From: Aquicoccus porphyridii
GTDB lineage: Bacteria > Pseudomonadota > Alphaproteobacteria > Rhodobacterales > Rhodobacteraceae
Direction of reading: 5' to 3'
Length of the DNA stretch: 64,000 bases
NCBI RefSeq assembly: GCF_008369105.1
Contig: NZ_VINQ01000014.1
Span: 1-64,000 of the forward strand
Shown here piece after piece: positions 3,236 to 63,619 of the stretch. The position numbers were made by a program, and so were the translations under genes. The first letter of the stretch is position 1, and each line of letters begins with the position of its first letter. Under the pieces are notes generated by a model. It was not told the DNA's origin. It saw nothing but the letters and a program-made list of their open reading frames with translations, and did no database searches.

Positions 3236-4060
3236 ATGTTCGAACGACGGCCCCAAAGACGATCGAGTCTGACATCCGCCTTCATCATTTTCGAACTGGT
3301 CTATCACTCGATCGTGCGCTCGGTCCGCAAAAGCCATGGCAACGCGGTCATGGCGCTTCTGGTCAACATGATGCAGGTCGCGATCATGGTGGCGGTGTTC
3401 TACGTGATGTTCACGCTGCTGGGCCTGCGCCGCTCGGCCATTCGCGGCGATTTCCTGCTCTACATCATGTCGGGCATCTTTCTCTACATGACCCATGTCA
3501 AGACGCTGGGCGCGGTGGTCGGCTCCGAAGGGCCGTCCTCGCCGATGATGCAGCACGCGCCGATGAACACGATCGTGTCGATTCTCTCGGCGGCGCTGGG
3601 CGCGCTCTATATCCAGGTGCTGTCGCTTTTCGTGATCCTGTTCGGCTATTATGTCATCGTCAATCGCTTCGTGATCGAACAACCCGTTGCCGCCTTCGGG
3701 GCCTTTCTGATCGCGTGGTTCACCGGCTTTGCGCTGGGCATCGTGCTGCTGGCGATCAAGCCGTGGTTCCCGACATTCGTGTCGATCTTCACCACCTTCT
3801 ACACCCGCGCCAACATGATCGCCTCGGGCAAGATGTTCGTCGCCAACACGCTGCCGGGGTACATGCTGGCGATGTTCGACTGGAACCCGCTGTTTCACGC
3901 CATCGACCAGGCCCGCGGCTTTGTCTTCGTGAATTATTTCCCGCGCTATTCGAATCTCGAATACCCGGTGATTGTCGGCATCACCCTCCTGATGCTCGGG
4001 CTGATCGGCGAGTTTTATACACGCCGCCACGCCTCGCTGAGCTGGGGCGCACGGCGTTAG
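3236..4060 (+). CDS. ABC-2 type polysaccharide-export permease (KpsM-like), without adjacent ATPase
   Basis: 274 residues with about six hydrophobic spans and the amphipathic N-terminal segment common to KpsM/Wzm permeases (LVYHSIVRSVRKSHG near residue 20). It should form the membrane channel that exports lipid-linked polysaccharide. No ATP-binding partner lies beside it. The nearest is the KpsT-like gene at 60.8 kb, which also has its own KpsM at 62.8 kb, so this is a second, distinct permease. It is divergent from cysQ-kdsB and has its own good promoter. It could pair with the distant ATPase or serve another glycan. Confidence 0.8.
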   Translation: MFERRPQRRSSLTSAFIIFELVYHSIVRSVRKSHGNAVMALLVNMMQVAIMVAVFYVMFTLLGLRRSAIRGDFLLYIMSGIFLYMTHVKTLGAVVGSEGPSSPMMQHAPMNTIVSILSAALGALYIQVLSLFVILFGYYVIVNRFVIEQPVAAFGAFLIAWFTGFALGIVLLAIKPWFPTFVSIFTTFYTRANMIASGKMFVANTLPGYMLAMFDWNPLFHAIDQARGFVFVNYFPRYSNLEYPVIVGITLLMLGLIGEFYTRRHASLSWGARR

Positions 4061-4071
4061 GGCCGGTCACG

Positions 4072-4277
4072 ATAAACTGGATTCGACCTGCCCGGAACGG
4101 CGGCGAAGCCGCCCGGGCAGCACACGGCCGCCCCCCGGCCGGGTGCTTTTGATAACGTGCGCGCCGCTTCGGGCGAGGGATGACGCTGCGGGATAAACTG
4201 CCCTACGCTGCCGTGATGAGCACCCGACCGCGGCCCTGTGCTGCCCTTCCGTCCGGCATCGGTCGAATCCGATTTAT
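4072..4277. repeat. long imperfect inverted repeat between convergent genes
   Basis: The 254-base gap between the permease and alkB holds two facing copies of one element. The outer arms 4072-4088 and 4261-4277 match as ATAAAxxGGATTCGACC in inverted orientation with two mismatches. The inner parts GGGCAGCACA-GGCCGC and CGGGTGC (4115-4147) recur inverted at 4219-4246. The left copy contains the palindromic core listed separately. It probably acts as a two-way terminator or is a mobile palindromic repeat. Confidence 0.6.
4091..4122 (+). repeat. dispersed palindromic repeat, family 1, copy 1
   Basis: The core CCCGGAAC-GGCGGC-GAA-GCCGCC-CGGGCAGCA is a GC-rich stem-loop downstream of the permease. 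Near-identical cores lie after dnaJ and after the HDAC-like gene, always just past a stop codon or between convergent genes. The pattern resembles REP/BIME-type elements. Confidence 0.6.
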
Positions 4278-5161: not shown

Positions 5162-7078
5162 ATGGCCAAAGTCATCGGTATTGACCTCGGAACCACCAAC
5201 TCCTGCATCGCCATCATGGATGGTGCGCAACCGCGCGTGATCGAAAACGCGGAAGGGGCGCGAACGACCCCCTCGATCGTCGCATTCACCGACGATGAAC
5301 GCCTCGTCGGCCAGTCGGCCAAACGTCAGGCCGTCACCAACCCAGAAAACACCATCTTCGGCGTCAAGCGCCTGATCGGTCGCCGTTTCGACGACAGCGA
5401 TCTGGCCAAGGACAAGAAGAACATGCCGTTCAACGTCATCGACGGCGGCAACGGCGACGCCTGGGTCGAAGCCAAGGACGAGAAATATTCGCCGTCCCAG
5501 ATTTCCGCCTTCATCCTCGGCAAGATGAAGGAAACCGCCGAAAGCTATCTCGGCGAAGAGGTGACGCAGGCCGTCATCACCGTGCCCGCCTATTTCAACG
5601 ACGCCCAGCGTCAGGCGACCAAGGACGCGGGCAAGATCGCGGGCCTCGAAGTGCTGCGCATCATCAACGAACCCACCGCGGCCGCGCTGGCCTATGGGCT
5701 CGACAAGAAGGACACGCACACCATCGCGGTCTATGACCTTGGCGGCGGCACCTTCGACGTGACCATCCTCGAAATCGACGATGGCCTGTTCGAAGTGAAA
5801 TCCACCAACGGCGACACCTTCCTCGGTGGCGAAGATTTCGACATGCGGATCGTCAACTACCTCGCTGACGAGTTCAAGAAAGAGCATGGCGTCGACCTGA
5901 CCAAGGACAAGATGGCCCTGCAACGGCTCAAGGAAGCCGCCGAAAAGGCCAAGATCGAGCTGTCGAGCTCCAGCCAGACCGAGATCAACCAGCCGTTCAT
6001 CTCGATGGACAAGGACACCGGACAGCCGCTGCACATGGTGATGAAGCTGACCCGGGCCAAGCTCGAAAGCCTCGTCTCCGACCTGATCAAGGCATCGCTC
6101 AAACCCTGCCAGGCCGCGCTCAAGGATGCCGGTCTCTCCAAGGATGACATCGACGAGGTCGTGCTTGTCGGCGGTCAGACCCGGATGCCCAAGGTGTTTG
6201 AAGAAGTGACCAAGTTCTTCGGCAAGGAACCCCACAAGGGCGTGAACCCCGACGAGGTCGTCGCCATGGGCGCCGCCATTCAGGCCGGCGTGCTTCAGGG
6301 CGATGTCAAGGACGTGGTCCTGCTCGACGTGACGCCGCTTTCGCTCGGCATCGAAACGCTGGGCGGCGTGTTCACCCGCCTCATTGACCGCAACACCACG
6401 ATCCCCACCAAGAAGTCCCAGATCTTCTCGACCGCCGAAGACAACCAGTCGGCCGTGACGATCCGCGTCTTCCAGGGCGAGCGTGAAATGGCGACCGACA
6501 ACAAGATGCTGGGTCAGTTCAACCTCGAAGACATCCCGCCCGCACCGCGCGGCATGCCCCAGATCGAGGTGACCTTCGACATCGACGCCAACGGCATCGT
6601 CTCGGTTTCGGCCAAGGACAAGGGCACCGGCAAGGAACACAAGATCACGATCCAGGCGTCGGGCGGTCTCTCGGACGACGACATCGACAAGATGGTCAAG
6701 GACGCCGAGGAAAACGCCGAGGCCGACAAGGCCCGTCGCGAACTCGTCGAGGCCCGCAACCAGGCGGAAAGCCTCATCCACTCGACCGAGAAATCCGTCG
6801 AGGAACATGCCGACAAGGTCGATCCGACCACGGTCGAGGCGATCGAACTGGCCATTGCCGCGCTCAAGGAAGATCTTGAGAAAGAGGACGTCAAGGCCGA
6901 GAAGATCAAGGCCGGCATCCAGAACGTGACCGAAGCGGCCATGAAACTGGGCGAGGCGATCTACAAGGCCAGCCAGGAAGAGGGCGATGACGAACCCTCC
7001 GCGGCCGATGCGGGGCCGGGCGACGACGACATCGTCGACGCCGATTTCGAAGACCTTGACGACGACAAGCGCGCGTAA
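5162..7078 (+). CDS. dnaK: Hsp70 chaperone DnaK
   Basis: 638 residues, the full DnaK length. It is the ATP-driven chaperone that binds unfolded polypeptides with DnaJ and GrpE. It begins with the ATPase phosphate-1 loop [10 protein letters not shown], contains the phosphate-2 loop [12 protein letters not shown] near residue 190, and has the substrate-binding domain after the [14 protein letters not shown] linker. The acidic tail ([15 protein letters not shown]) is typical. AAGGGATCG gives the ribosome site before ATG at 5162. dnaJ follows after 74 bases. It is probably under heat-shock control from the promoter at 5018-5047. Confidence 0.98.
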
Positions 7079-7152
7079 GCGTTCAGGGACCTCAGGGGCC
7101 GGATCGCTGATCCGGTCCGGCCCCGACCGGTCTTTTGAAAGGGGATAACCCG

Positions 7153-8304
7153 ATGGCAAAACGCGACTTCTACGATGTGCTCGGAGTGTCCAGGGGCGCG
7201 TCGACCGACGAGATCAAGAAGGCCTACCGCAAGAAGGCCAAAGAGCTTCACCCAGACCGCAACTCCGACAATCCGCAGGCCGAAGCCCAGTTCAAGGAAG
7301 CGAACGAGGCCTACGAGGTGTTGAAGGACGCCGAGAAAAAGGCCGCCTATGACCGGTTCGGCCACGCCGCCTTCGAGGGCGGCATGGGCGGCGGCGGTGC
7401 GCGCCATGGCGGGCATCCCGGACAGGGCGATTTCGCCTCGGCCTTCTCGGATGTGTTCGACGATCTCTTCGGCGATTTCATGGGCGGGCGCGGTGGCCCC
7501 GGCGGGCGGCAGCGTGCCACCCGCGGTGCCGACCTGCGCTATAACATGCGCATCACGCTGGAAGAGGCGTTCACGGGTCTGCAGAAAACCATCAACGTGC
7601 CCTCCTCGGTGCAATGCGATGTCTGTGACGGTAGCGGCGCCGAAAGCGGCTCGGAACCCAGCACCTGTCCGACCTGCTCGGGCATGGGCAAGGTCCGCGC
7701 GCAGCAGGGCTTTTTCACCGTCGAACGCACCTGCCCGACCTGTGGCGGGCTGGGCCAGATCATCCAGAACCCGTGCAAGGCCTGCCATGGCCAGGGCCGG
7801 GTTCACCGGGATCGTTCGCTGTCGGTGAACATTCCCGCGGGCGTCGAAACCGGCACCCGAATCCGCCTCGCCGGAGAGGGCGAGGCCGGGATGCGCGGTG
7901 GGCCCACGGGCGATCTTTTCATCTTCATCGAGGTGGAAAAGCACGGTCTCTTCGAGCGCGAAGGCAACGATCTTTTCTGCCGCGTGCCGGTCTCGATGGC
8001 CGCCGCCGCGCTGGGTGGCGATATCGAGGTGCCCACGATCGACGGCGGCCGTTCGCGCGTAAAGATTCCCGCCGGCTCGCAATCCGGCCGCCAGATGCGC
8101 CTGCGCGGCAAGGGCATGCCCGCCCTGCGCGGTGGCCCCGCGGGCGACATGTTCATCGAGCTTGCGGTCGAAACCCCGGTGAACCTCACCGCGCGGCAGA
8201 AAGATCTGCTCCGTGAATTCGAGGATCTCAGCGAAGAGAACAACCCGCAAAGCTCGTCCTTCTTTTCCTCGGTCAAGAGCTTCTGGGACGCGATGAAGGG
8301 TTGA
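7153..8304 (+). CDS. dnaJ: Hsp40 co-chaperone DnaJ
   Basis: 383 residues. It stimulates DnaK ATPase activity and delivers substrates. The J domain carries HPD in LHPDRNSDN, followed by a Gly/Phe-rich stretch and four zinc repeats ([32 protein letters not shown]). I start at the ATG at 7153 ([10 protein letters not shown]), preceded by AAGGGG, and not at the upstream in-frame start at 7135, because homologues begin MAKRDYYEVL. The stop is followed at once by a strong palindromic hairpin (8305-8345) that likely ends the dnaK-dnaJ transcript. Confidence 0.97.
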
Positions 8305-54475: not shown

Positions 54476-55630
54476 TTATGCCGATGTCCCGGTGGTCAGT
54501 TCACCGGCCAGCCGACCGGTATCGTAACACAGGAAGGTTTCGACAACGTGATAGAAGGTCGAGGCCGGCATGGTGGTGGACAAGAGCCGCCCGGTTCCGT
54601 CCCGCCGATCGTACCATCCGCCGGGCACAGGCGTGTCGAAATATCCCGACCAGAGCCGTTCCAGCACCGCGCGCGGGGCCAGGTGAGTTGGCAGCGCCCC
54701 GCCCTTTGACTGTAAAAGTCGGCTGGCCCGGAGCAATTCCGTTTGTGGCCAGAGCCGATAGCTGTCCTGTCCTGCGATGTCCGGCAAGAATCCCGCCGGC
54801 GCCAGATGCGCCGTGGCGGCGGCAAAAAGCATGAAGGCGGGCGGCAGGGCGGGCCCCTCTGTTTCGGGCAGGTCCAGCCCTTGCCAACCCGTTTCGAGCG
54901 CGATCCATTCGACCAGATGCCCGGGTTCTTCCTGTTGATCCGCACCGGTGAGCGGCACCAGATCGGCATCGAAGAATTCCAGCAGCCGAAGATCGGATTG
55001 CAGGAAAACCTGTGTCAGCAATGCCCGGCAGGCGCTGGCTCGTGCCGCGAACCGCGGTGCGCCGGTCACCCGGTAGAGCGCGCACATCGCCTCGAAAAGA
55101 TGCATATGCGGGTTCTGCCGCCGGGGCAGGCGATGGGCGGCGCATTCATGCCAGCCCTGCGGGGCCGCAAGCCGGTCGAGCGCGGTTTCCAGCCGGGCGA
55201 TCTCGTCGTGCAGATCGGTCCCGGCGGCGGTCAGACCGGCGGCGGCCAGCAACACGAAGCTGAGATCGTAAAGATCATGCGGCGCCTTCAGGATGCTCAG
55301 GTCGGGTGCCAGCCAGCTTGCGAGATTCCCGGTATCGGGGTCGAAGCCACGGGACATGACAAAGCCGAAGAGCGTTTCGGCCCGGGCCTTGAGATCGGCG
55401 GCCAGTGCGGGTGCCGTACCGGGTTGATGGGCCAGTGTCGCAAAGGCGTAGGCCTGGCGCGCCTGCACCCGCAACCGTCGGTTCAGATCACCGCAGGGGC
55501 GGCCGTCATGGTCGAGCGCCTCCCACACCGTGCCGGTGGCATCGTCCCAGCCTGCCCCGGTCCAGAGCGGTATGGCCTGCTCAAGCAGCCAGGGCAGCAG
55601 GGCCGCGGGGGGCGTCGTTGGGCGGTTCAT
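54476..55630 (-). CDS. N-acylglucosamine 2-epimerase (AGE) family protein
   Basis: 384 residues of the (alpha/alpha)6 barrel family. HMHLFEAMCALYRVTG (about 201-216) and HDLYDLSFVLLAAAGL match AGE/mannose isomerase conserved parts, and FYHVVETFLCY ends the barrel. AGE proteins epimerise GlcNAc to ManNAc, a sialic acid precursor, or isomerise mannose and fructose. The neighbouring sialyltransferase-like and NeuA-like genes favour the first, but sequence alone cannot decide. ATG at 55630 shares ATGA with the stop of the GT42-like gene, so it is coupled. Confidence 0.82.
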   Translation of the reverse strand: MNRPTTPPAALLPWLLEQAIPLWTGAGWDDATGTVWEALDHDGRPCGDLNRRLRVQARQAYAFATLAHQPGTAPALAADLKARAETLFGFVMSRGFDPDTGNLASWLAPDLSILKAPHDLYDLSFVLLAAAGLTAAGTDLHDEIARLETALDRLAAPQGWHECAAHRLPRRQNPHMHLFEAMCALYRVTGAPRFAARASACRALLTQVFLQSDLRLLEFFDADLVPLTGADQQEEPGHLVEWIALETGWQGLDLPETEGPALPPAFMLFAAATAHLAPAGFLPDIAGQDSYRLWPQTELLRASRLLQSKGGALPTHLAPRAVLERLWSGYFDTPVPGGWYDRRDGTGRLLSTTMPASTFYHVVETFLCYDTGRLAGELTTGTSA

Positions 55631-56442
55631 GGGGTTGGCGGCCGACCCAGCAAGCGACGGCGCAGCGCCGAGGCGCGACGCAGTGTCTTGAGCAGGGCAA
55701 TCGGATAGGGCCCGGCCCAATCCACCCAGTCGTTGACCGGGTTGGGGCGTGGCAGGGCCTCGATGGCCTGCCCGTCGCGGATCGGTGCAAGGGGGAGCAC
55801 GTCGTCGAGGGCGGATTGCTCGGTGGTTCGCTCGAGCCGCACATCGCCTCGCGCGAGCAGCATCTCGAAGATCGACCGGTCGAGATCGGCATTGTGCAGA
55901 TGCTTGTCCGGCCCCATCGCTGCCATGCCCGGCGCCATCAGCGTCTGGAAATGTCGTCCGGGGGTAAAAGGGTAGCGCGGTCCACCGGTATAGAGATCCA
56001 TTCCCGCCAGCAGGATATGACGAGCCCCCAACCCGTGTGCGGCCAGCACCGCGTAGGTGCCCGACATCGGCTTGCGCTGATAGCGCGCCACCAGATCGGC
56101 CACGCCGCGCTCGATCGCGGCATCGCGAAAGCGCATCGGGCGATAGAGATCGCGGAACCGGCGCATCCCGGCCTTGATCACCTTGGGATTATGGCTTGTC
56201 CATGCGCCGATTTCATATTGGTCGCGGCACCGATGAAGGGTTTCGAACATGAAAGGCACCACCCGCGGATCGCCGGCGATATAGGCCAGATCGACGCGCC
56301 GACCCAGATAGAAGGCGCGTTCGAAGAAGAAATTGTTGGTCCGCATCACCGCGTCCCCGGTTAGCACCCGGCCCGGCGCGATGCTTGTCAGGGAGTGGCC
56401 ATTGCCAGCCACCACGCAGGTGCGACCTTCCAGCACGCTCAC
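55627..56442 (-). CDS. GT42-type sialyltransferase homologue
   Basis: 271 residues. CVVAGNGHSLTSI (about 9-21) is the CMP-binding loop of GT42 enzymes (compare Campylobacter Cst-I/Cst-II), followed by MRTNNFFFERAFYLG, SGTYAVLAAHGLGARHILLA (about 127-146), GMDLY and a His-rich KHLHNADLDRSIFEML (about 180-195) where the catalytic His should be. It should transfer a nonulosonic acid from CMP-sugar to a glycan. The start is GTG at 56442, overlapping the neuA-like stop as GTGA. The comparison with Cst proteins is from memory. Confidence 0.78.
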   Translation of the reverse strand: MSVLEGRTCVVAGNGHSLTSIAPGRVLTGDAVMRTNNFFFERAFYLGRRVDLAYIAGDPRVVPFMFETLHRCRDQYEIGAWTSHNPKVIKAGMRRFRDLYRPMRFRDAAIERGVADLVARYQRKPMSGTYAVLAAHGLGARHILLAGMDLYTGGPRYPFTPGRHFQTLMAPGMAAMGPDKHLHNADLDRSIFEMLLARGDVRLERTTEQSALDDVLPLAPIRDGQAIEALPRPNPVNDWVDWAGPYPIALLKTLRRASALRRRLLGRPPTP

Positions 56443-57635
56443 GACACCCGTGCCAGCAGGGCATCGCACATGGCACGCAATGCACCACGCCCCCCGGGTT
56501 GCGGTAGCACCCAGTCTGCCCGGGCCAGGATCTCGGGGTGGGCATCTGCAGGGCAGGCCGATAGCCCCGCCCGTGCCATGACCGCCGCATCGTTGACGTC
56601 ATTGCCGACATAGAGCGTCTGTGCCCAGTCGAGCCCCTGTCCGGTCAGCCAGCCTTCCAACGCGGCCACCTTGTCGTCGATTGATTGATAGACCTCAATA
56701 TTGAGTTTCGCCGCCCGCCGTTCGACCACGGGGTTGCGTTCCTTGGACAGGATCATCAGGCGCCAATGCCCGGCCTTGCGCAGAAGCTCGAGTCCCATTC
56801 CGTCGCCGCGCGAGGTCATCACCGCCTCGCGCCCGGTGTCATCGGTCAGCACGAGGTTGTCGGTATGCACCCCGTCGAAATCCATCACCACCGCCGCGAC
56901 GCGGTCAAGCCGGTTGCCGATGTCGGGGCGCCCGCCGTGCGACACCGCGATCTGCGAACAAAGCGCCAGATCGTCGGGCGTGTCGATCTCGACCGGCGGA
57001 TGATCGACCGGGCAAAGGGCCACGGGTCCGCAGAACCGCTGCCCGGTGCGGACAAAATCGGCCGCGCGCACGCAGTAGATGGCGCCACTCTCGCGGAAGG
57101 CGGGGGGCAGATCCTGCCGCCGCTTGCGGGGCTGGCTTTCGTCATGGTTGGTGCCACGGCCGAATCCGGCCTCGTCCAGCGTCCAGAGAAAGGAATGATC
57201 CTCGATCACCGACAGTGCACAGGCTGCGCCTTTTTCTTCCATCACCGCGAGACAAGCCTCGATATCGGCGCCGGTGGTAAAGGGCGAGGTGCATTGCAGG
57301 AAGACCAGCCGCTCCACCGTCTTGCCCTGTTCCTCGATCATTTCCAGCGCGTGCAGCCAGCCGGATTCCGAACTGGCCGTATCACCCGATAGCATCGCTG
57401 GGCGGTCGACCACCTCGGCGCCGAACCGCCGGGCCTCGGCGGCGATGGCGGCATCGTCGGTGGAGACATGCACCTGTGCGACGGAAGGGGCGGTGCGTGC
57501 AGCGCGCACCGACCGCGCCACCAGCGAAAGCCCGCCGACCAGGCGCAGGTTCTTGCCCGGCACACCCTTGGAGCCGCCACGGGCCAGAATCACGCAATGG
57601 GTTGTGGAGGCATTGGGCACGGACGGCTGGGACAC
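56439..57635 (-). CDS. neuA: CMP-nonulosonate cytidylyltransferase fused to KdsC-like HAD phosphatase
   Basis: 398 residues, two domains. Residues 1-230: NeuA-type cytidylyltransferase with ILARGGSKGVPGKNL (16-30), LQCTSPFTT and VEIDTPDDL. Residues 240-398: HAD phosphatase with D252-x-D254 (MDFDGVHTD), S297, K322 and GNDVND (344-349), so all four HAD motifs are kept and the domain should be active. The fusion may dephosphorylate a nonulosonate 9-phosphate and then activate it with CTP. The start is GTG at 57635. The exact sugar (Neu, Kdn, Leg, Pse) is unknown. Confidence 0.88.
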   Translation of the reverse strand: MSQPSVPNASTTHCVILARGGSKGVPGKNLRLVGGLSLVARSVRAARTAPSVAQVHVSTDDAAIAAEARRFGAEVVDRPAMLSGDTASSESGWLHALEMIEEQGKTVERLVFLQCTSPFTTGADIEACLAVMEEKGAACALSVIEDHSFLWTLDEAGFGRGTNHDESQPRKRRQDLPPAFRESGAIYCVRAADFVRTGQRFCGPVALCPVDHPPVEIDTPDDLALCSQIAVSHGGRPDIGNRLDRVAAVVMDFDGVHTDNLVLTDDTGREAVMTSRGDGMGLELLRKAGHWRLMILSKERNPVVERRAAKLNIEVYQSIDDKVAALEGWLTGQGLDWAQTLYVGNDVNDAAVMARAGLSACPADAHPEILARADWVLPQPGGRGALRAMCDALLARVS

Positions 57636-57690
57636 GGTAATAGTGCCTTCCTCTTATTGATTTCGAGGGAGCAAAAACCCCGACCGTCGA

Positions 57691-57725
57691 AGCGTTTACA
57701 AAAAATCCAGTGCGGTGTAAACGCT
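57691..57725. promoter_or_regulatory. perfect palindrome in the divergent promoter of the nonulosonate locus
   Basis: AGCGTTTACA (57691-57700) and TGTAAACGCT (57716-57725) are perfect inverted arms 15 bases apart. They lie in the 120-base gap between the divergent neuA-type operon and the glycosyltransferase operon, so one regulator could control both. No T-run, so a terminator is less likely. Confidence 0.55.
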
Positions 57726-57755
57726 GTCTCGACCCAGGATCAGAGCGGATCTGCC

Positions 57756-57977
57756 ATGCTTCTTGCACGTCTCAAAGCCACCCGACTCGGGAAATGGCTT
57801 TATCGTCAGTCGCGTCACCCGCGGCTGGGGGTGCCGTTGCGCTGGGTTATGGCGCAAGGGATACATGAACGACTTGACCTGGCCCATTGGCGCGCGGCCA
57901 ACCGCCGCCATAACGCCCGGCAAGCGGCCACGCTTGCGGCCTTTCGGGCGCGCGATACCGGGCAGCCCCGGTCATGA
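57756..57977 (+). CDS. small basic protein coupled to glycosyltransferase
   Basis: 73 residues, very rich in Arg (about one residue in five) with Trp and Leu: LGKWLYRQSRHPRLGVPLRW and HWRAANRRHNARQA. No family recognised. It has no signal peptide or long hydrophobic span and is probably helical. Its TGA stop overlaps the start of the next gene by four bases (ATGA), and it is the first gene after the palindrome, which argues that it is real. ATG at 57756 has only a weak ribosome site. Confidence 0.6.
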   Translation: MLLARLKATRLGKWLYRQSRHPRLGVPLRWVMAQGIHERLDLAHWRAANRRHNARQAATLAAFRARDTGQPRS

Positions 57978-59083
57978 GTTCCCCGCGCCGCCTGTTGCTT
58001 CCCTTCTGTGACGATTCCACGCTGATTTTTGCTGTGCGCCTGCGCAACCTGTTGCGCGTGGCCGCGCCCGAGGCGGACGTCACATTGGGGTGCTACATGT
58101 CCGAACAGGCGTTGTCGTTGCGCCAACTGCAAATGCAGCTTCCCGAGGCCGATTACCTGATTTTATCCGATGAGATGCTGATCGAGTCGGTTCAGCAGGG
58201 ATATTACGACGCGGTGCTCACCAGCCGGGTGTTCCGGTCGCTGACCGATTTTTTGCGCACGCCGGTGCTCAAGCATTTGCGCGGACGAGCCCGGGTGATT
58301 GGCTTCCTCGGCGGGCTCGATTTCTTTCCCGATCGCAGCTATGCCAACCGCATTCCCTGTGACGGCGTGTTCATGTTTCCCCGCGGGGAGGTTGAGAAAT
58401 TCTCGGCCTGGGCGACGAAGCAGGTAGAGAACGACAGCAACCTGACCGCACCGCTGGTGGATTTCGGTCATCCGACGTTTCTCGAACCGTCTCCGACCCC
58501 GCCTGCCGACCTGGAAACGCGGCGCGACATCTATTTCTTCGCCCAGGCGATCTCGCCTTTGACCCGGCGTGGACGGTTGCATGTGCTTGAAGCCATGGTC
58601 GCGCTGGCCGAGGCCAATCCCGATCGCACGATCTGGATCAAGCTGCGCCATCTGCCCGATGAGAACACCAGCCACCTGCACCGGGAGAAACACGATTACC
58701 AGGGCCTGATCGAGGCTGCGTTCAAATCCGTGCCGCCGAACCTCAGGCTCACCGCCTGTCCGATGCATGAGGCGCTGGAGCAGGCGGCGTTGGGGATCAC
58801 CTGCACGTCAACCGCGGCCATCGACCTGATCCGCGAAGGTGTGCCGACCATGGTCTATCTTGATTACGTGGATGCCTATATGGACCCGATGTCGGCGGCG
58901 ATGAGGCGAATCTTCGAGGGCAGCAATGTCATCACGTCGCTTGATGACCTGTTGCATCTGCGCCATGGCACGCCCGATCCGGACTGGGTAAAGCAGATGT
59001 TCTGTCCTCACGACCTGGGACAGCGCGTCCTCGACATGGTCGAGACGCTTCAGTCGCGCTCTGCCTCGGCGTCGTCGGGATAG
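57974..59083 (+). CDS. putative capsule-type glycosyltransferase (DUF6716-like)
   Basis: 369 residues. The opening LLLPFCDDSTLIFAVRLRNLL and the C-terminal ITCTSTAAIDLIREGVPTMVYLDY resemble GT-B polysaccharide transferases of the KpsS/polysialyltransferase kind, where STAAID-like loops bind the CMP-sugar phosphate. I believe this matches the DUF6716 putative glycosyltransferases, but could not check. It is coupled to the small basic protein gene, and its last 34 bases overlap the 3' end of the convergent sulfotransferase gene. A role in polymerising or capping the nonulosonate glycan is inference. Confidence 0.65.
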   Translation: MSSPRRLLLPFCDDSTLIFAVRLRNLLRVAAPEADVTLGCYMSEQALSLRQLQMQLPEADYLILSDEMLIESVQQGYYDAVLTSRVFRSLTDFLRTPVLKHLRGRARVIGFLGGLDFFPDRSYANRIPCDGVFMFPRGEVEKFSAWATKQVENDSNLTAPLVDFGHPTFLEPSPTPPADLETRRDIYFFAQAISPLTRRGRLHVLEAMVALAEANPDRTIWIKLRHLPDENTSHLHREKHDYQGLIEAAFKSVPPNLRLTACPMHEALEQAALGITCTSTAAIDLIREGVPTMVYLDYVDAYMDPMSAAMRRIFEGSNVITSLDDLLHLRHGTPDPDWVKQMFCPHDLGQRVLDMVETLQSRSASASSG

Positions 59084-59823
59084 AAGAGGCGGAAATCCTC
59101 GGCATAGCGGGTGGCGATCCGGGCGCGGGTCTCGGGCGACAGGGTTTCGGCGATCTCTGGCCCGGTCTGACCGCGCATGTTGTGTCGTCGCATTGGTCCG
59201 GGATCAATGCCGCATCGCATTTGGATCTCGTACCGCACATGGTTCCAGTCGGCCTCGACGTTTTCGACCCGGCCGACGAAATCCGGCAGCACCCGGCCAC
59301 GCCAACTGACGATCGAGGTCTGGGATCTCAGGTGGATTTCGCTTTTGGCATCGGGGGTTCGCGCCACCACCTCGACGAAGGCGTCGAAATCCATGCCCCG
59401 GGTGATGCCCATTTCGGCCATGCGGGGCAATAGCACGGGATTTTCCACCACCTTGTTGTTCCAACATGAATAGAGCCGCGACACAGGATGACGCACGAAG
59501 GTAAAACTCCAGCCGGCACGGGTGGCGGGATGCAGCGCATAGGCCGCCGGGCGCATGCGCCAGACCCGGTCGCGGTCCTGTTCGGCCCAGAAGGCATCCT
59601 TGGACGGTCTACGCCCGGCGGTTGAGGTCAGATCGAAGGCCAGGGCCAGAGCCGTTCGGATCGAGGAATTGGCCGCCTTTGCGACCCTGAAATAGCCGAT
59701 CTGCGCCTCGGGTAGCCACATCACGTGCCGTTCAAACCCGGGATTGATCCTGCGATAGAGCCCCCGGGCCCATTTCCGTGGCCGCCACCGCTTTGACCGG
59801 TTGCCCATGTCCGGTTTGGTCAT
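59050..59823 (-). CDS. carbohydrate sulfotransferase family 2-like
   Basis: 257 residues. The 5'-phosphosulfate loop is YFRVAKAANSSIRTAL (about 43-58) and the 3'-phosphate motif is FTFVRHPVSRLYSCW (about 105-119), as in the Sulfotransfer_2 family of carbohydrate sulfotransferases. It should move sulfate from PAPS to a sugar, leaving PAP, which CysQ (2304-3101) can clear. ATG at 59823 overlaps the GT2 stop (ATGA). Its 3' end overlaps the convergent glycosyltransferase by 34 bases. Confidence 0.82.
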   Translation of the reverse strand: MTKPDMGNRSKRWRPRKWARGLYRRINPGFERHVMWLPEAQIGYFRVAKAANSSIRTALALAFDLTSTAGRRPSKDAFWAEQDRDRVWRMRPAAYALHPATRAGWSFTFVRHPVSRLYSCWNNKVVENPVLLPRMAEMGITRGMDFDAFVEVVARTPDAKSEIHLRSQTSIVSWRGRVLPDFVGRVENVEADWNHVRYEIQMRCGIDPGPMRRHNMRGQTGPEIAETLSPETRARIATRYAEDFRLFYPDDAEAERD

Positions 59824-60647
59824 GTCTTTTCTCCGTCTCGGGGGTGGTCCGGCACATGGCCTCGCGCAAAGGCCAGCACGCGCCGGGGATCGCCGATTCG
59901 CCTGCGGTAACGCAGCGCGTAAAGCCCCCGCACGAGCGGTGCCCACGCGCCAAAGACACGCTTCAGCATGGCCATGCGCGCGCGCATAAGGTCAGGGCGT
60001 TGCCAATTGTCGCCAGTGCTTTCGGACGGGTGCCGGCCCACTGCCACCGGTAATGAAAGCCCCTTCAGACCGGCCTTGAGCGCATCGGTGACGAAGACGT
60101 ATTCCTCGCCCAGACCGAACCGCGCGCCCAGGCCGAAATCCGGATCGAACCGCAGTCCGGCGGCGTCGATCGTGTCGCGGCGCACCATGAGTTCCGGAGC
60201 GCAGACCCGACCGGCATTGAAATGATGCAATCGATGCACCCGCCCGCGCCGTCCGGTGCCGGGCAGCCGGTCGCTGCGCCAACCCGCGGCGAAGCCCAGC
60301 TTGGGATCTTCGGCAAAGGCGCGGGCGAGGCGATGGAAGCCTGCGGGGTCGAGCGTCATGTCGTCATCGGCAAAAACCAGCAGGCTGCCGGTAGCGACGT
60401 CGAAAGCGGTATTGCGGCTGCGCGACAGCCCTATCGTGTCAAGGATATGCACGCTGACATCGGGGCGCGCCGCGATGGCTTCGGGGCAGGGCGTCGTTCC
60501 CGGTTTCTGGACCAGCACCACATAGTCGAGGCCGGGGCAAGGGGCAGGCAGATCGAGACCGCCCAGCCGTTCCCCAATCGTTGAAATCGCTACCGTGATC
60601 GACAGGTTGATCGGTCGGCCGGTGGGCGCTTTGTCCTTTGTTGTCAC
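59820..60647 (-). CDS. family 2 glycosyltransferase
   Basis: 275 residues. VAISTIGERLGGLDL starts the fold, SRSRNTAFDVATGSLLVFAD leads into the DDD metal motif at about 94-96 (FADDDMT). LGARFGLGEEYVFVTDAL is the acceptor-binding part. It is coupled to the sulfotransferase by a four-base overlap, which suggests the two act on the same chain. It has its own promoter-like site at 60680-60709. It differs from the GT2 at 275-1510. Confidence 0.86.
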   Translation of the reverse strand: MTTKDKAPTGRPINLSITVAISTIGERLGGLDLPAPCPGLDYVVLVQKPGTTPCPEAIAARPDVSVHILDTIGLSRSRNTAFDVATGSLLVFADDDMTLDPAGFHRLARAFAEDPKLGFAAGWRSDRLPGTGRRGRVHRLHHFNAGRVCAPELMVRRDTIDAAGLRFDPDFGLGARFGLGEEYVFVTDALKAGLKGLSLPVAVGRHPSESTGDNWQRPDLMRARMAMLKRVFGAWAPLVRGLYALRYRRRIGDPRRVLAFARGHVPDHPRDGEKT

Positions 60648-60679
60648 TGGTCATCCGTCCGCTGTTCGATCATGCGAGG

Positions 60680-60709
60680 CAGATAGCGGCAATGGCAAGG
60701 CGAGGTCAA
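60680..60709 (-). promoter_or_regulatory. candidate promoter of the glycosyltransferase-sulfotransferase pair
   Basis: On the minus strand TTGACC (60709-60704) and TATCTG (60685-60680) are 18 bases apart, about 35 bases ahead of the GT2 start. A small hairpin (ACCCGC/GCGGGT, 60755-60771) lies between this and the kpsT-like stop. Confidence 0.4.
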
Positions 60710-60803
60710 TGTGATGCCCGTGCCCCCGCATTCAGACCCGCCCTTCTTATTCTGACCCGCCGCTCGCGGGTGCGCAGTATGTCGACCAGCGTGTCCCACG
60801 GCG

Positions 60804-61469
60804 TTACTTGCGGGCAAGCTTCATGTTGGCATTGTGTTGAGCGATGGCGTCTTCGAGATCCTCGTAGAAGAACAATTCACCGTTTTCCAGCACGGCGCCG
60901 TAGTCACAGAGATTGCGTATCTCGGAGATGGAATGGGTCACGACGATCGCGCCGGACGAAGCCATGCGATCCTTGAAGACCGTCGCGCTCTTGGCTCGGA
61001 AGGATGCGTCACCCACCGATGTCACCTCGTCCACCAGGTAGGTGTCAAACTTGATGCCCATTGAAATACCAAAGGCCAACCGCGAGCGCATCCCCGAGGA
61101 GTAAGAGCGCACAGGCATGTGGTAATGTCCGCCCAGCTCGGCGAAGTCGCTTACGAAATCCAGTAATTCCTCGGTATCGACCCCGTAGACCCGGGCGATG
61201 AACCGCACGTTCTGGGCGCCGGTCAGGTCACGGTGAAACGTCCCTGCGAAGCCGACCGGAAAGGAGATTTCGCCATCGGTCAGAATCTCGCCGCTGTCTG
61301 GGGGGAAATTGCCCGCGATCATCTGCAGCAGGGTGGATTTGCCGGCCCCGTTGCGCCCCAGCAATCCAACCGCCTTGCCCGTCGGAAAAACCGCGTTGAT
61401 GCCCCGGGCGACGTATTTCGGGCCTTGCCGTGAGGGAAAGCTCTTGGTCAGGTTTCGCAGTTCAATCAT
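60804..61469 (-). CDS. kpsT: capsule polysaccharide export ATP-binding protein
   Basis: 221 residues. Walker A GRNGAGKST (about 38-46), the ABC signature YSSGMRSRLAFG and Walker B TYLVDEVTSVGD are clear. The short length and signature fit KpsT/Wzt proteins without a carbohydrate-binding domain. It powers export of lipid-linked capsule with KpsM. I start at the ATG at 61469 (MIELRNLTKSF), five bases after the kpsE-like stop; the frame extends upstream only into that gene. Confidence 0.93.
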   Translation of the reverse strand: MIELRNLTKSFPSRQGPKYVARGINAVFPTGKAVGLLGRNGAGKSTLLQMIAGNFPPDSGEILTDGEISFPVGFAGTFHRDLTGAQNVRFIARVYGVDTEELLDFVSDFAELGGHYHMPVRSYSSGMRSRLAFGISMGIKFDTYLVDEVTSVGDASFRAKSATVFKDRMASSGAIVVTHSISEIRNLCDYGAVLENGELFFYEDLEDAIAQHNANMKLARK

Positions 61470-61474
61470 CGCAC

Positions 61475-62728
61475 TCAGCGGCGGTCCCGCAGGCTGTAAT
61501 AGACAAGCACCAGAATGCACCAGCTGCCAAACAGGATAAGTGCGACGAGTCCCAGGATCAGCTCGCGGCGGGGATACTCGGGGCTTTCTGCGAGCGTTGG
61601 CTGCACATAAGCGGCGAGGTATCGGCTTTGACGCTGTGCATTGGCCTGGGCGGCATCGAAATTCGACAGGGCCGAGGTGTACTTGTTCTCGGCGAATTCG
61701 CGCTCGACGGTGAGCTTTTCGAATTCCGCCACCACGTCGGCGTAATCGCCTGCTTCCTCTTCGGAGCCGCCGCTGCCGAATTTCTGCCTTTCCTCCTGAA
61801 TTCGCGCGCGAATCGCGGCGATCCGGCGTTCGGCCTGAATCACGCGGGGGTCTTCCTTGCGGGCGGATTCGCGCAGCAGGTCATAGTCGATCAACTCCTG
61901 CCCCAGCATTTGTTGCAACGATCCCAACAGCCCCATCTGCACCTGGATGTCGGCGTCGGGGTTCACGATCTGGTTGCGCGAACGGAAAGCGGTGAGGGCC
62001 TGCCGCGCGGTGCTGAGTTGTTCTAGCGCGGTCGCGAGATCTTCGCGCGCATAGCGCATGGCGTCTTCGCGGGCGATCGCCGAGAGCTCATTGATCATGC
62101 TGGAGCTTTCGGAAAATATCTCTTCGGCAATGCGTTTTGACGTCGCGGCGTCGAAGCTGAGCACCTCGACGTCGATCAGGCCGGTGCCCGGCGCATAGGA
62201 GATTCGCACCATGCGCTGCCAGAAATTCAGCAGATCCTCGATCGAGGCGCCGGGGGGCAAGGCAAAGATCGGGTCTGTCTCGTAGGGCGCGGAATAAAGT
62301 TCACGCAGGCCAAGCTTGGCGTCGATCTTGCTCACCAGTTCATGCGACTGGATGAATGCGAAGAGTACGTCGCTGTCCGATGAGCTTGCCGAGGAAAAAT
62401 TGGTCAGCCCGCCGAGAATGTCCACGGCAGTGGGGGCCTCTTCGCGGCGTACGGTGAAGGCCACGGAGGAGGCGAATTGGTCATGCGCGTTTGTCCACAG
62501 GTAATAGGCGGCCGCACCGATCGGTGCGAGCACGAGGATCAAGAAGGACAGGAGGATGCCCATGTGCCGCCGCTTGGGGCGCGCCGACTGTGCAGGTGGG
62601 CGCGGTTTGGATTTTTGGGCAGCGGGCTTTGTCTTGGCCGCTGGTTTTTTCGCGGGGGCCTCATCTGTCTTGGCGGAGTCGGATGCGGTCGTTTTTGCCG
62701 TCTGGTCTTGGGGCGATTGATCATTCAT
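61475..62728 (-). CDS. kpsE: capsule polysaccharide export inner-membrane protein (KpsE-like)
   Basis: 417 residues. A Lys/Ala/Pro-rich N-terminal cytoplasmic tail (about 1-55) precedes TM1 (ILLSFLILVLAPIGAAAYYL). The periplasmic part is mostly coiled coil (about 200-370). TM2 (LILGLVALILFGSWCILVLV) is near the C-terminus. This is the PCP-type adaptor that links KpsMT to the outer-membrane channel. A GTG lies just before the chosen ATG at 62728. It is divergent from kpsM and coupled to kpsT. Confidence 0.9.
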   Translation of the reverse strand: MNDQSPQDQTAKTTASDSAKTDEAPAKKPAAKTKPAAQKSKPRPPAQSARPKRRHMGILLSFLILVLAPIGAAAYYLWTNAHDQFASSVAFTVRREEAPTAVDILGGLTNFSSASSSDSDVLFAFIQSHELVSKIDAKLGLRELYSAPYETDPIFALPPGASIEDLLNFWQRMVRISYAPGTGLIDVEVLSFDAATSKRIAEEIFSESSSMINELSAIAREDAMRYAREDLATALEQLSTARQALTAFRSRNQIVNPDADIQVQMGLLGSLQQMLGQELIDYDLLRESARKEDPRVIQAERRIAAIRARIQEERQKFGSGGSEEEAGDYADVVAEFEKLTVEREFAENKYTSALSNFDAAQANAQRQSRYLAAYVQPTLAESPEYPRRELILGLVALILFGSWCILVLVYYSLRDRR

Positions 62729-62794
62729 CACGGCTGTGGTCCAAAGGCATGGGCAAATACTGCTTGTCTATAGGACAGATGGAACCATGTCGCA

Positions 62795-63619
62795 ATGAAC
62801 ACTTCGCCGGATACCGGAGTTCCGCCGCCCCAACGCCCGCTGGGGCCTGCACGCGCCAAGGGCGGCACGGGTCGGGTGGTCGGTGCGCTGATCCTGCGCG
62901 AGATGTCCACCACTTATGGCAGATCCCCGGGGGGGTATGTCTGGGCGGTGCTGGAACCGGCGGCGGCCATTTTCATGATGACGCTCGCGTTTTCCCTATT
63001 GTTCCGGTCGCCGTCACTGGGAACGAATTTCCTGCTGTTCTATGCCAGTGCCCTGTTACCGCTTCGGGTTTTTCAGAACCTGTCGCAGGCGGTGGGGGCG
63101 GCGATCCAGTTCAACCGTCCGCTGATGGCCTATCCGCGGGTGACCTATGTCGACACCATCGCGGCGCGGGCGATCCTGGCGGTCCTGACACAGACCATGG
63201 TGGTGCTGATCATCTTCGGCGGTATTTTCATCACTCAGGACATTCGCGAAAATATCGATATGGCGCCGATGCTGGAAGGGTTCCTGCTCGCTGTTTCGTT
63301 GGGTGTGGGGCTGGGCACCTTCAACTGTTTCATGTTCCTGCGCTTTGCCGTGTGGAAATCTGTCTGGGGCATCGCGACCCGGCCGCTTATCATCATTTCG
63401 GGGGTTTTCTACATCTACGAAGACCTTCCGCTTATTGCCCAGGATCTTTTGTGGTTCAACCCGTTGATCCATGTAACGGGGATCGTCCGGTCCGGGGTCT
63501 ATTCCACTTACGATCCCGCCTATATCTCCCGGACCTACGTGATCTTTTTCGGGCTCATTCCGATGGTTTTCGGCCTGTTGCTCTTGTGGCGTTACGGGCG
63601 CGATATACTGCAACGCTGA
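62795..63619 (+). CDS. kpsM: capsule polysaccharide export permease (KpsM-like)
   Basis: 274 residues with about six membrane spans and the KpsM/Wzm pattern: VVGALILREMSTTYGRSPGG at the N-terminus, YASALLPLRVFQNLSQAV, and a C-terminal WFNPLIHVTGIVRSGVY. It forms the channel with KpsT. It is divergent from kpsE-kpsT with a 66-base gap, so the exporter is split over two transcripts. A second permease of this family is at 3236-4060. Confidence 0.92.
   Translation: MNTSPDTGVPPPQRPLGPARAKGGTGRVVGALILREMSTTYGRSPGGYVWAVLEPAAAIFMMTLAFSLLFRSPSLGTNFLLFYASALLPLRVFQNLSQAVGAAIQFNRPLMAYPRVTYVDTIAARAILAVLTQTMVVLIIFGGIFITQDIRENIDMAPMLEGFLLAVSLGVGLGTFNCFMFLRFAVWKSVWGIATRPLIIISGVFYIYEDLPLIAQDLLWFNPLIHVTGIVRSGVYSTYDPAYISRTYVIFFGLIPMVFGLLLLWRYGRDILQR

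Follow-up and report, generated by a model that had tools for sequence, protein, structure and literature searches.

Kdn is a nitrogen-free sialic acid. In the Kdn-9-phosphate pathway of Bacteroides thetaiotaomicron and Prymnesium parvum, the Kdn-9-phosphate synthetase takes mannose-6-phosphate, a KdsC-type HAD phosphatase is used and NeuC has no part (PMC6200933). The capsules of Serratia marcescens KL1/KL2, for which NeuA and NeuB and no NeuC are described, have Kdn as the main sialic acid, at a Kdn:Neu5Ac ratio of about 20:1; their NeuB carries a fused COG1082 domain, and no HAD fusion, GT42 enzyme or sulfotransferase is described (PMC9000132). In the Leptospira precedent the fusion is a different one, on NeuB. 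For Poseidonocella sedimentorum KMM 9023, a sulfated polysaccharide that contains 9-O-methyl-Kdn (Kdn9Me) is reported, at second hand in a review (PMC9912281).

The window analysed here, a whole stretch of 64,000 nucleotides, belongs to contig C36 of a 4.5-Mb marine roseobacter genome (G000). We conclude with considerable confidence that its locus at 54476-63619 contributes most of a scattered pathway whose product would be a capsular (or capsule-like) polysaccharide that is sulfated and contains Kdn. The locus has in common with the B. thetaiotaomicron and Prymnesium parvum pathway the synthase, phosphatase and CMP-synthetase steps, the KdsC-type phosphatase and the lack of NeuC, but differs in that phosphatase and CMP-synthetase are fused, the synthase lies on another contig and the genes are linked to GT42, DUF6716, a sulfotransferase and KpsTEM. 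With the Serratia loci it would share a capsule made with NeuA and NeuB in which Kdn predominates. The parts are of known kinds; what is new is their combination, the signature of a SAF-less NeuB with an HAD-fused NeuA, and the dispersal.

Results

The nine genes that the earlier note had claimed for this 9-kb cluster are all present, with intact reading frames and Pfam/NCBIfam matches, several of the scores lying under the curated NCBIfam cut-offs. The likely starts of the AGE gene (55630), the KpsT gene (about 61472) and the sulfotransferase gene (about 59826) are slightly off those of the longest open reading frames. Because IspA-like and Dxs-like genes, recognized by sequence, lie upstream, a chromosomal site is suggested. 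Export of the ABC type (group 2/3) is represented by a KpsT-like ATPase (60804..61472, minus strand; PF00005), a KpsE/CtrB/BexC inner-membrane protein (61475..62731, minus strand; TIGR01010 5.6e-56) and a KpsM-like permease (62795..63619, plus strand; NF050053 3.8e-19), and a search of the rest of the genome for kpsD and kpsC/S found KpsS-KpsD-KpsC together on contig C180 (C180:136494-140668 and C180:137906). A carbohydrate sulfotransferase of the Sulfotransfer_2 family (59050..59826, minus strand; PF03567 2e-17) has a relative in the P. sedimentorum locus (L103), and a GT2 glycosyltransferase (59820..60647, minus strand; PF00535 7.2e-7) has relatives in 11 GT42-bearing loci. The note's prediction of an exported, possibly sulfated polysaccharide derived from a CMP-nonulosonate is supported by these genes and gained further independent support from the results below.

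The note had also remarked that NeuB and NeuC are absent from the window and that the route to the sugar is incomplete there. Indeed, no NeuB or Epimerase_2 match was obtained on contig C36, so that both remarks hold for this contig; the rest of the genome, however, supplies the NeuB, and the pathway is complete in the genome as a whole. A genome-wide search by family for a nonulosonate synthase recovered three NeuB genes, on contigs C3, C202 and C113, and the note's own refuting case, a genome devoid of such a synthase, does not apply. The one on C113 (G000:C113:34905-35816), whose sole noted neighbour is a divergent GT2 gene, belongs to the NeuA-HAD module, as judged by its phylogenetic profile and by the linkage of the two in related genomes. 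In a sample of the family that takes one genome for each genus (296 in all), GT42, the full-length NeuA-HAD fusion (at least 64% identity) and the C113-type SAF-less NeuB (at least 78%, the next NeuB being at 40%) occur in the identical five genomes, a profile whose chance by hand arithmetic is about 1 in 1.8e10 if the genomes are taken as independent and kinship is left uncorrected. In three relatives (G038, G118 and G294) the C113-type NeuB lies inside the cluster or near it on the same contig. GT42 is rare outside this group, since none was found in 384 other genomes drawn from the class.

Two relatives hold the set in one place. Every one of the nine window genes has a relative, 70-91% identical (KpsT 91%, KpsM 81%), on the 52-kb replicon pMaD10 of Marinovum algicola DG 898, which also carries the C113 NeuB (90%), its GT2 and the Pse genes that the window's genome has on C202; this locus differs in being plasmid-borne and contiguous with those Pse genes. 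Locus L103 of P. sedimentorum KMM 9023 likewise unites relatives of the nine genes with the C113-type NeuB and GT2, and differs by its two sulfotransferases and a methyltransferase. The window's genome thus has in scattered form a locus whose genes lie together in related bacteria.

The other two NeuB genes stand in different settings. On C3, NeuB is accompanied by NeuC, which passes its cut-off, by NeuA and by two WaaA-like genes; the block (L014 7781-15812, G000:C3) comprises an LpxL-like acyltransferase, a SAF-bearing NeuB, NeuC, the two WaaA-like GT30 genes and NeuA, which suggests a separate Neu5Ac-type pathway beside Kdo-transferase duplicates and a nonulosonate in the lipopolysaccharide core. 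This is the only NeuC of the genome, and none was found linked to the NeuA-HAD module. On C202 are a PseI above its cut-off and a PseG-like gene, directly upstream of which lies a decayed SAF-less NeuB remnant (G000:C202 ~6008-6262; L016 ~4009-4262) made of codons 1-31 and about 122-170, with a stop; pMaD10 has an intact gene at this place, and the working copy in the window's genome is that of C113. One marine genome thus holds three distinct nonulosonate pathways, of Neu5Ac type on C3, of Pse type on C202 and of Kdn type on C36 and C113.

The C113 NeuB matches PF03102 only and ends 9 residues after Neisseria position 287; the SAF domain and Arg314 of Neu5Ac-forming NeuB were not found in it. 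In the Neisseria enzyme the SAF domain brings in Arg314, an essential residue that positions the ManNAc N-acetyl group (PMC6795526), and a synthase that has neither would therefore be expected to accept a sugar without N-acetyl. When 84,980 genomes were scanned with NeuA-HAD, 80 named loci were recovered, and in none of them (0/80) was NeuC found within 10 kb. Their 61 NeuB include 52 without SAF, which keep 0-19 residues past position 287; wherever the alignment covers the sites, these have Trp where Neisseria has Phe112, and position 134 is not acidic. The other nine bear SAF and are mostly PseI-like. By comparison, in another 25 NeuB from the family the tail is of SAF length (57-68) and position 112 is Phe or Tyr. 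Taken together, the sugar made is probably Kdn rather than Neu5Ac, and NeuC would not be needed.

One relative ties these genes to a reported sugar. The P. sedimentorum genome has a single NeuB, of the SAF-less type, and neither an Epimerase_2 (NeuC) gene nor PseI was found in it, so that by elimination this NeuB is the only candidate of a known type for the Kdn that the review reports for that strain; the methyltransferase of L103 fits the 9-O-methyl group. On two plasmids of Sinorhizobium fredii, SAF-less NeuB adjoins NeuA-HAD, and a 5-O-methyl-Kdn polysaccharide is reported for this species (reference 44 of PMC9000132). The parent strain would be HH103, and genes and polymer are compared here at the level of the species. 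Another rhizobial locus, L170 (Sinorhizobium meliloti ml28 pSymB), brings together NeuB, NeuA-HAD, DUF6716, a 556-aa protein annotated as alpha-2,3-sialyltransferase and capsule genes, and may define a Kdn-type K-antigen.

The fusion of a NeuA-type cytidylyltransferase with a KdsC-type HAD phosphatase (56439..57635, minus strand; PF02348 8.9e-17, TIGR01670 9.9e-26) matches the CMP-Neu5Ac synthetase of N. meningitidis through its NeuA domain (1.5e-34) and 3mmz through its HAD domain (1.2e-32). All seven HAD catalytic positions are invariant in an alignment of 66 such fusions; this speaks for an intermediate phosphorylated at position 9, like that of the Kdn pathway already described (PMC6200933). 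We predict that this protein is a CMP-Kdn synthetase/Kdn-9-phosphatase.

GT42 (55627..56469, minus strand; PF06002 3.7e-9) was at first the weakest family call, with 36.9 bits over a Pfam cut-off of 25. It has held up: the full-length phmmer match to CstI reaches 7.6e-11, and a profile of 26 sequences matches CstII over its full length (model 5-235) at 1.8e-26. In the 26 orthologs, aligned to CstI/II, His192, Tyr166 and Asn45 are invariant and Tyr160 nearly so, the roles of which we take from CstII to be catalytic for the His and Tyr pair and at the CMP site for the Asn. The protein is a probable Kdn transferase as judged by its sequence; it shares full-length homology and catalytic residues with CstI/CstII but is distant from them (phmmer 7.6e-11 at best), and unlike them its marine clade is tied to a Kdn-type module, not to Neu5Ac synthesis of the NeuBC type. 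In L103, a 688-aa protein (5177-7243) for which Pfam names GT8 only has a C-terminal 'FFIGNGPSLNQTDL...FAFNWF' stretch like the nucleotide-site motif of GT42.

DUF6716 (57974..59083, plus strand; PF20471 1.8e-35 in the HMM check) is modelled by AF2 as a GT-B fold with a pLDDT of 92.5, and its K-L-R-H and T-S-T-A-A stretches resemble the K-A-H-P and N-S-T-A-A stretches of KpsS, a family of CMP-Kdo enzymes. It is a probable second CMP-sugar transferase, so that both GT42 and DUF6716 are candidates for Kdn transfer; the linkages they would form, like the specificities of the enzymes in general, we infer. The model has Z about 20 against UDP-GlcNAc 2-epimerases and 17-18 against GT-B transferases, a slight lean to the former that counts against our reading, though both classes have the GT-B fold; a role as a NeuC substitute is disfavoured because of the KpsS-like stretches, despite the former value. 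No sequence relative was found in the PDB, and none of the papers searched names the family. Clustering of called genes places DUF6716 with NeuA-HAD in 43 loci and GT42 in 28, the latter mainly from roseobacters. Some NeuA-HAD loci from Actinobacteria and Rhizobiales encode proteins with an 'SPLQ'-like N-terminus (L142 13231-14637, L133 6413-7504, L153 6946-7935); that of L133 had no match in the Pfam scan, and that of L142 matches the Pfam alpha-2,8-polysialyltransferase, hinting at poly-Kdn or related polymers.

The AGE epimerase of the earlier note (54476..55630, minus strand) stands as a sugar 2-epimerase/isomerase of the AGE superfamily (PF07221 1.5e-39), with three superfamily His invariant in 22 orthologs, while its model lies nearer to other members of the superfamily than to GlcNAc 2-epimerases. 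The AF2 model (pLDDT 95) has Z 39.6-41.6 against mannose isomerase, cellobiose and glucose 2-epimerases and YihS, compared with 34.1-36.6 against GlcNAc 2-epimerases, a fold that does not fix the substrate; a profile search ranks them in the same direction, and the score against the curated GlcNAc 2-epimerase equivalog is 20.6 bits for a cut-off of 600. The enzyme probably supplies or interconverts mannose. By our own tblastn count the gene is present in 25 of 29 GT42 loci. It is lacking from most loci without GT42, which counts against the pathway proposed below, as does the fact that its step has no explanation if the synthase takes mannose-6-phosphate.

Discussion

We propose that the SAF-less NeuB of C113 would condense PEP with a mannose-type hexose, most likely mannose-6-phosphate, to Kdn-9-phosphate, from which the HAD domain would remove the phosphate before the NeuA domain fused to it forms CMP-Kdn. 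GT42 and/or DUF6716 would then move Kdn onto a chain built with GT2 enzymes, the sulfotransferase would sulfate this Kdn polysaccharide chain, its presumed target, and KpsT/M/E with the KpsS-KpsD-KpsC of C180 would prime and export the polymer, with mannose probably provided by the AGE-family enzyme.

It is possible, though doubtful, that the polymer is a mixed one, in which Kdn from the module is joined by a sugar of pseudaminic type that the C202 genes would provide: PseI and a PseG-like gene are there, and on pMaD10 and in G038 the Pse-type genes directly adjoin the Kdn genes. However, in P. sedimentorum the Kdn set occurs with no PseI, so that Pse genes are not needed, and the sugar they make may be destined for flagellin or a different glycan. 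Somewhat less likely, the cluster would decorate lipopolysaccharide and KpsTME would serve another polymer. The Kdn9Me polymer of P. sedimentorum was in fact published as an O-polysaccharide, according to the review (PMC9912281); against this, KpsT/E/M lie within the cluster in several relatives, and KpsC and KpsS, the Kdo-linker enzymes of ABC-type export, are present both in the window's genome and, away from L103, in that of P. sedimentorum. A Neu5Ac capsule, in which AGE would make ManNAc from GlcNAc or the neuB-neuC-neuA set of C3, with its NeuC above cut-off, could provide it for CMP-Neu5Ac, is improbable even though GT42 and NeuA families are known mostly with Neu5Ac, given a module NeuB without SAF and hence without Arg314, the 80 loci devoid of NeuC, a P. 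sedimentorum genome with no Epimerase_2 gene although Kdn is reported for that strain, an AGE enzyme far under the GlcNAc 2-epimerase cut-off and nearer in its model to mannose-handling enzymes, and a C3 set that has its own NeuA and NeuB.

A Kdn-containing polysaccharide remains the reading that we prefer, and with it an apparently incomplete 'sialic acid' cluster becomes a testable Kdn capsule pathway, its genes tied to an existing polysaccharide structure. The sequence rule (no SAF, Trp112, HAD-fused NeuA, no NeuC) could separate Kdn producers from those of Neu5Ac, legionaminate and pseudaminate, and GT42 enzymes from beyond host-associated bacteria would add new means of transferring Kdn. 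We lean slightly towards the wider view that NeuA-HAD paired with a SAF-less NeuB (Ser110/Trp112 and a non-acidic residue at 134) is the mark of a pathway devoted to Kdn, present in Alphaproteobacteria, Actinobacteria, Verrucomicrobiota, Chloroflexota and further groups, that its product may be read from sequence, and that Kdn polymers may be far commoner among free-living bacteria than one would gather from the small number of chemical reports.
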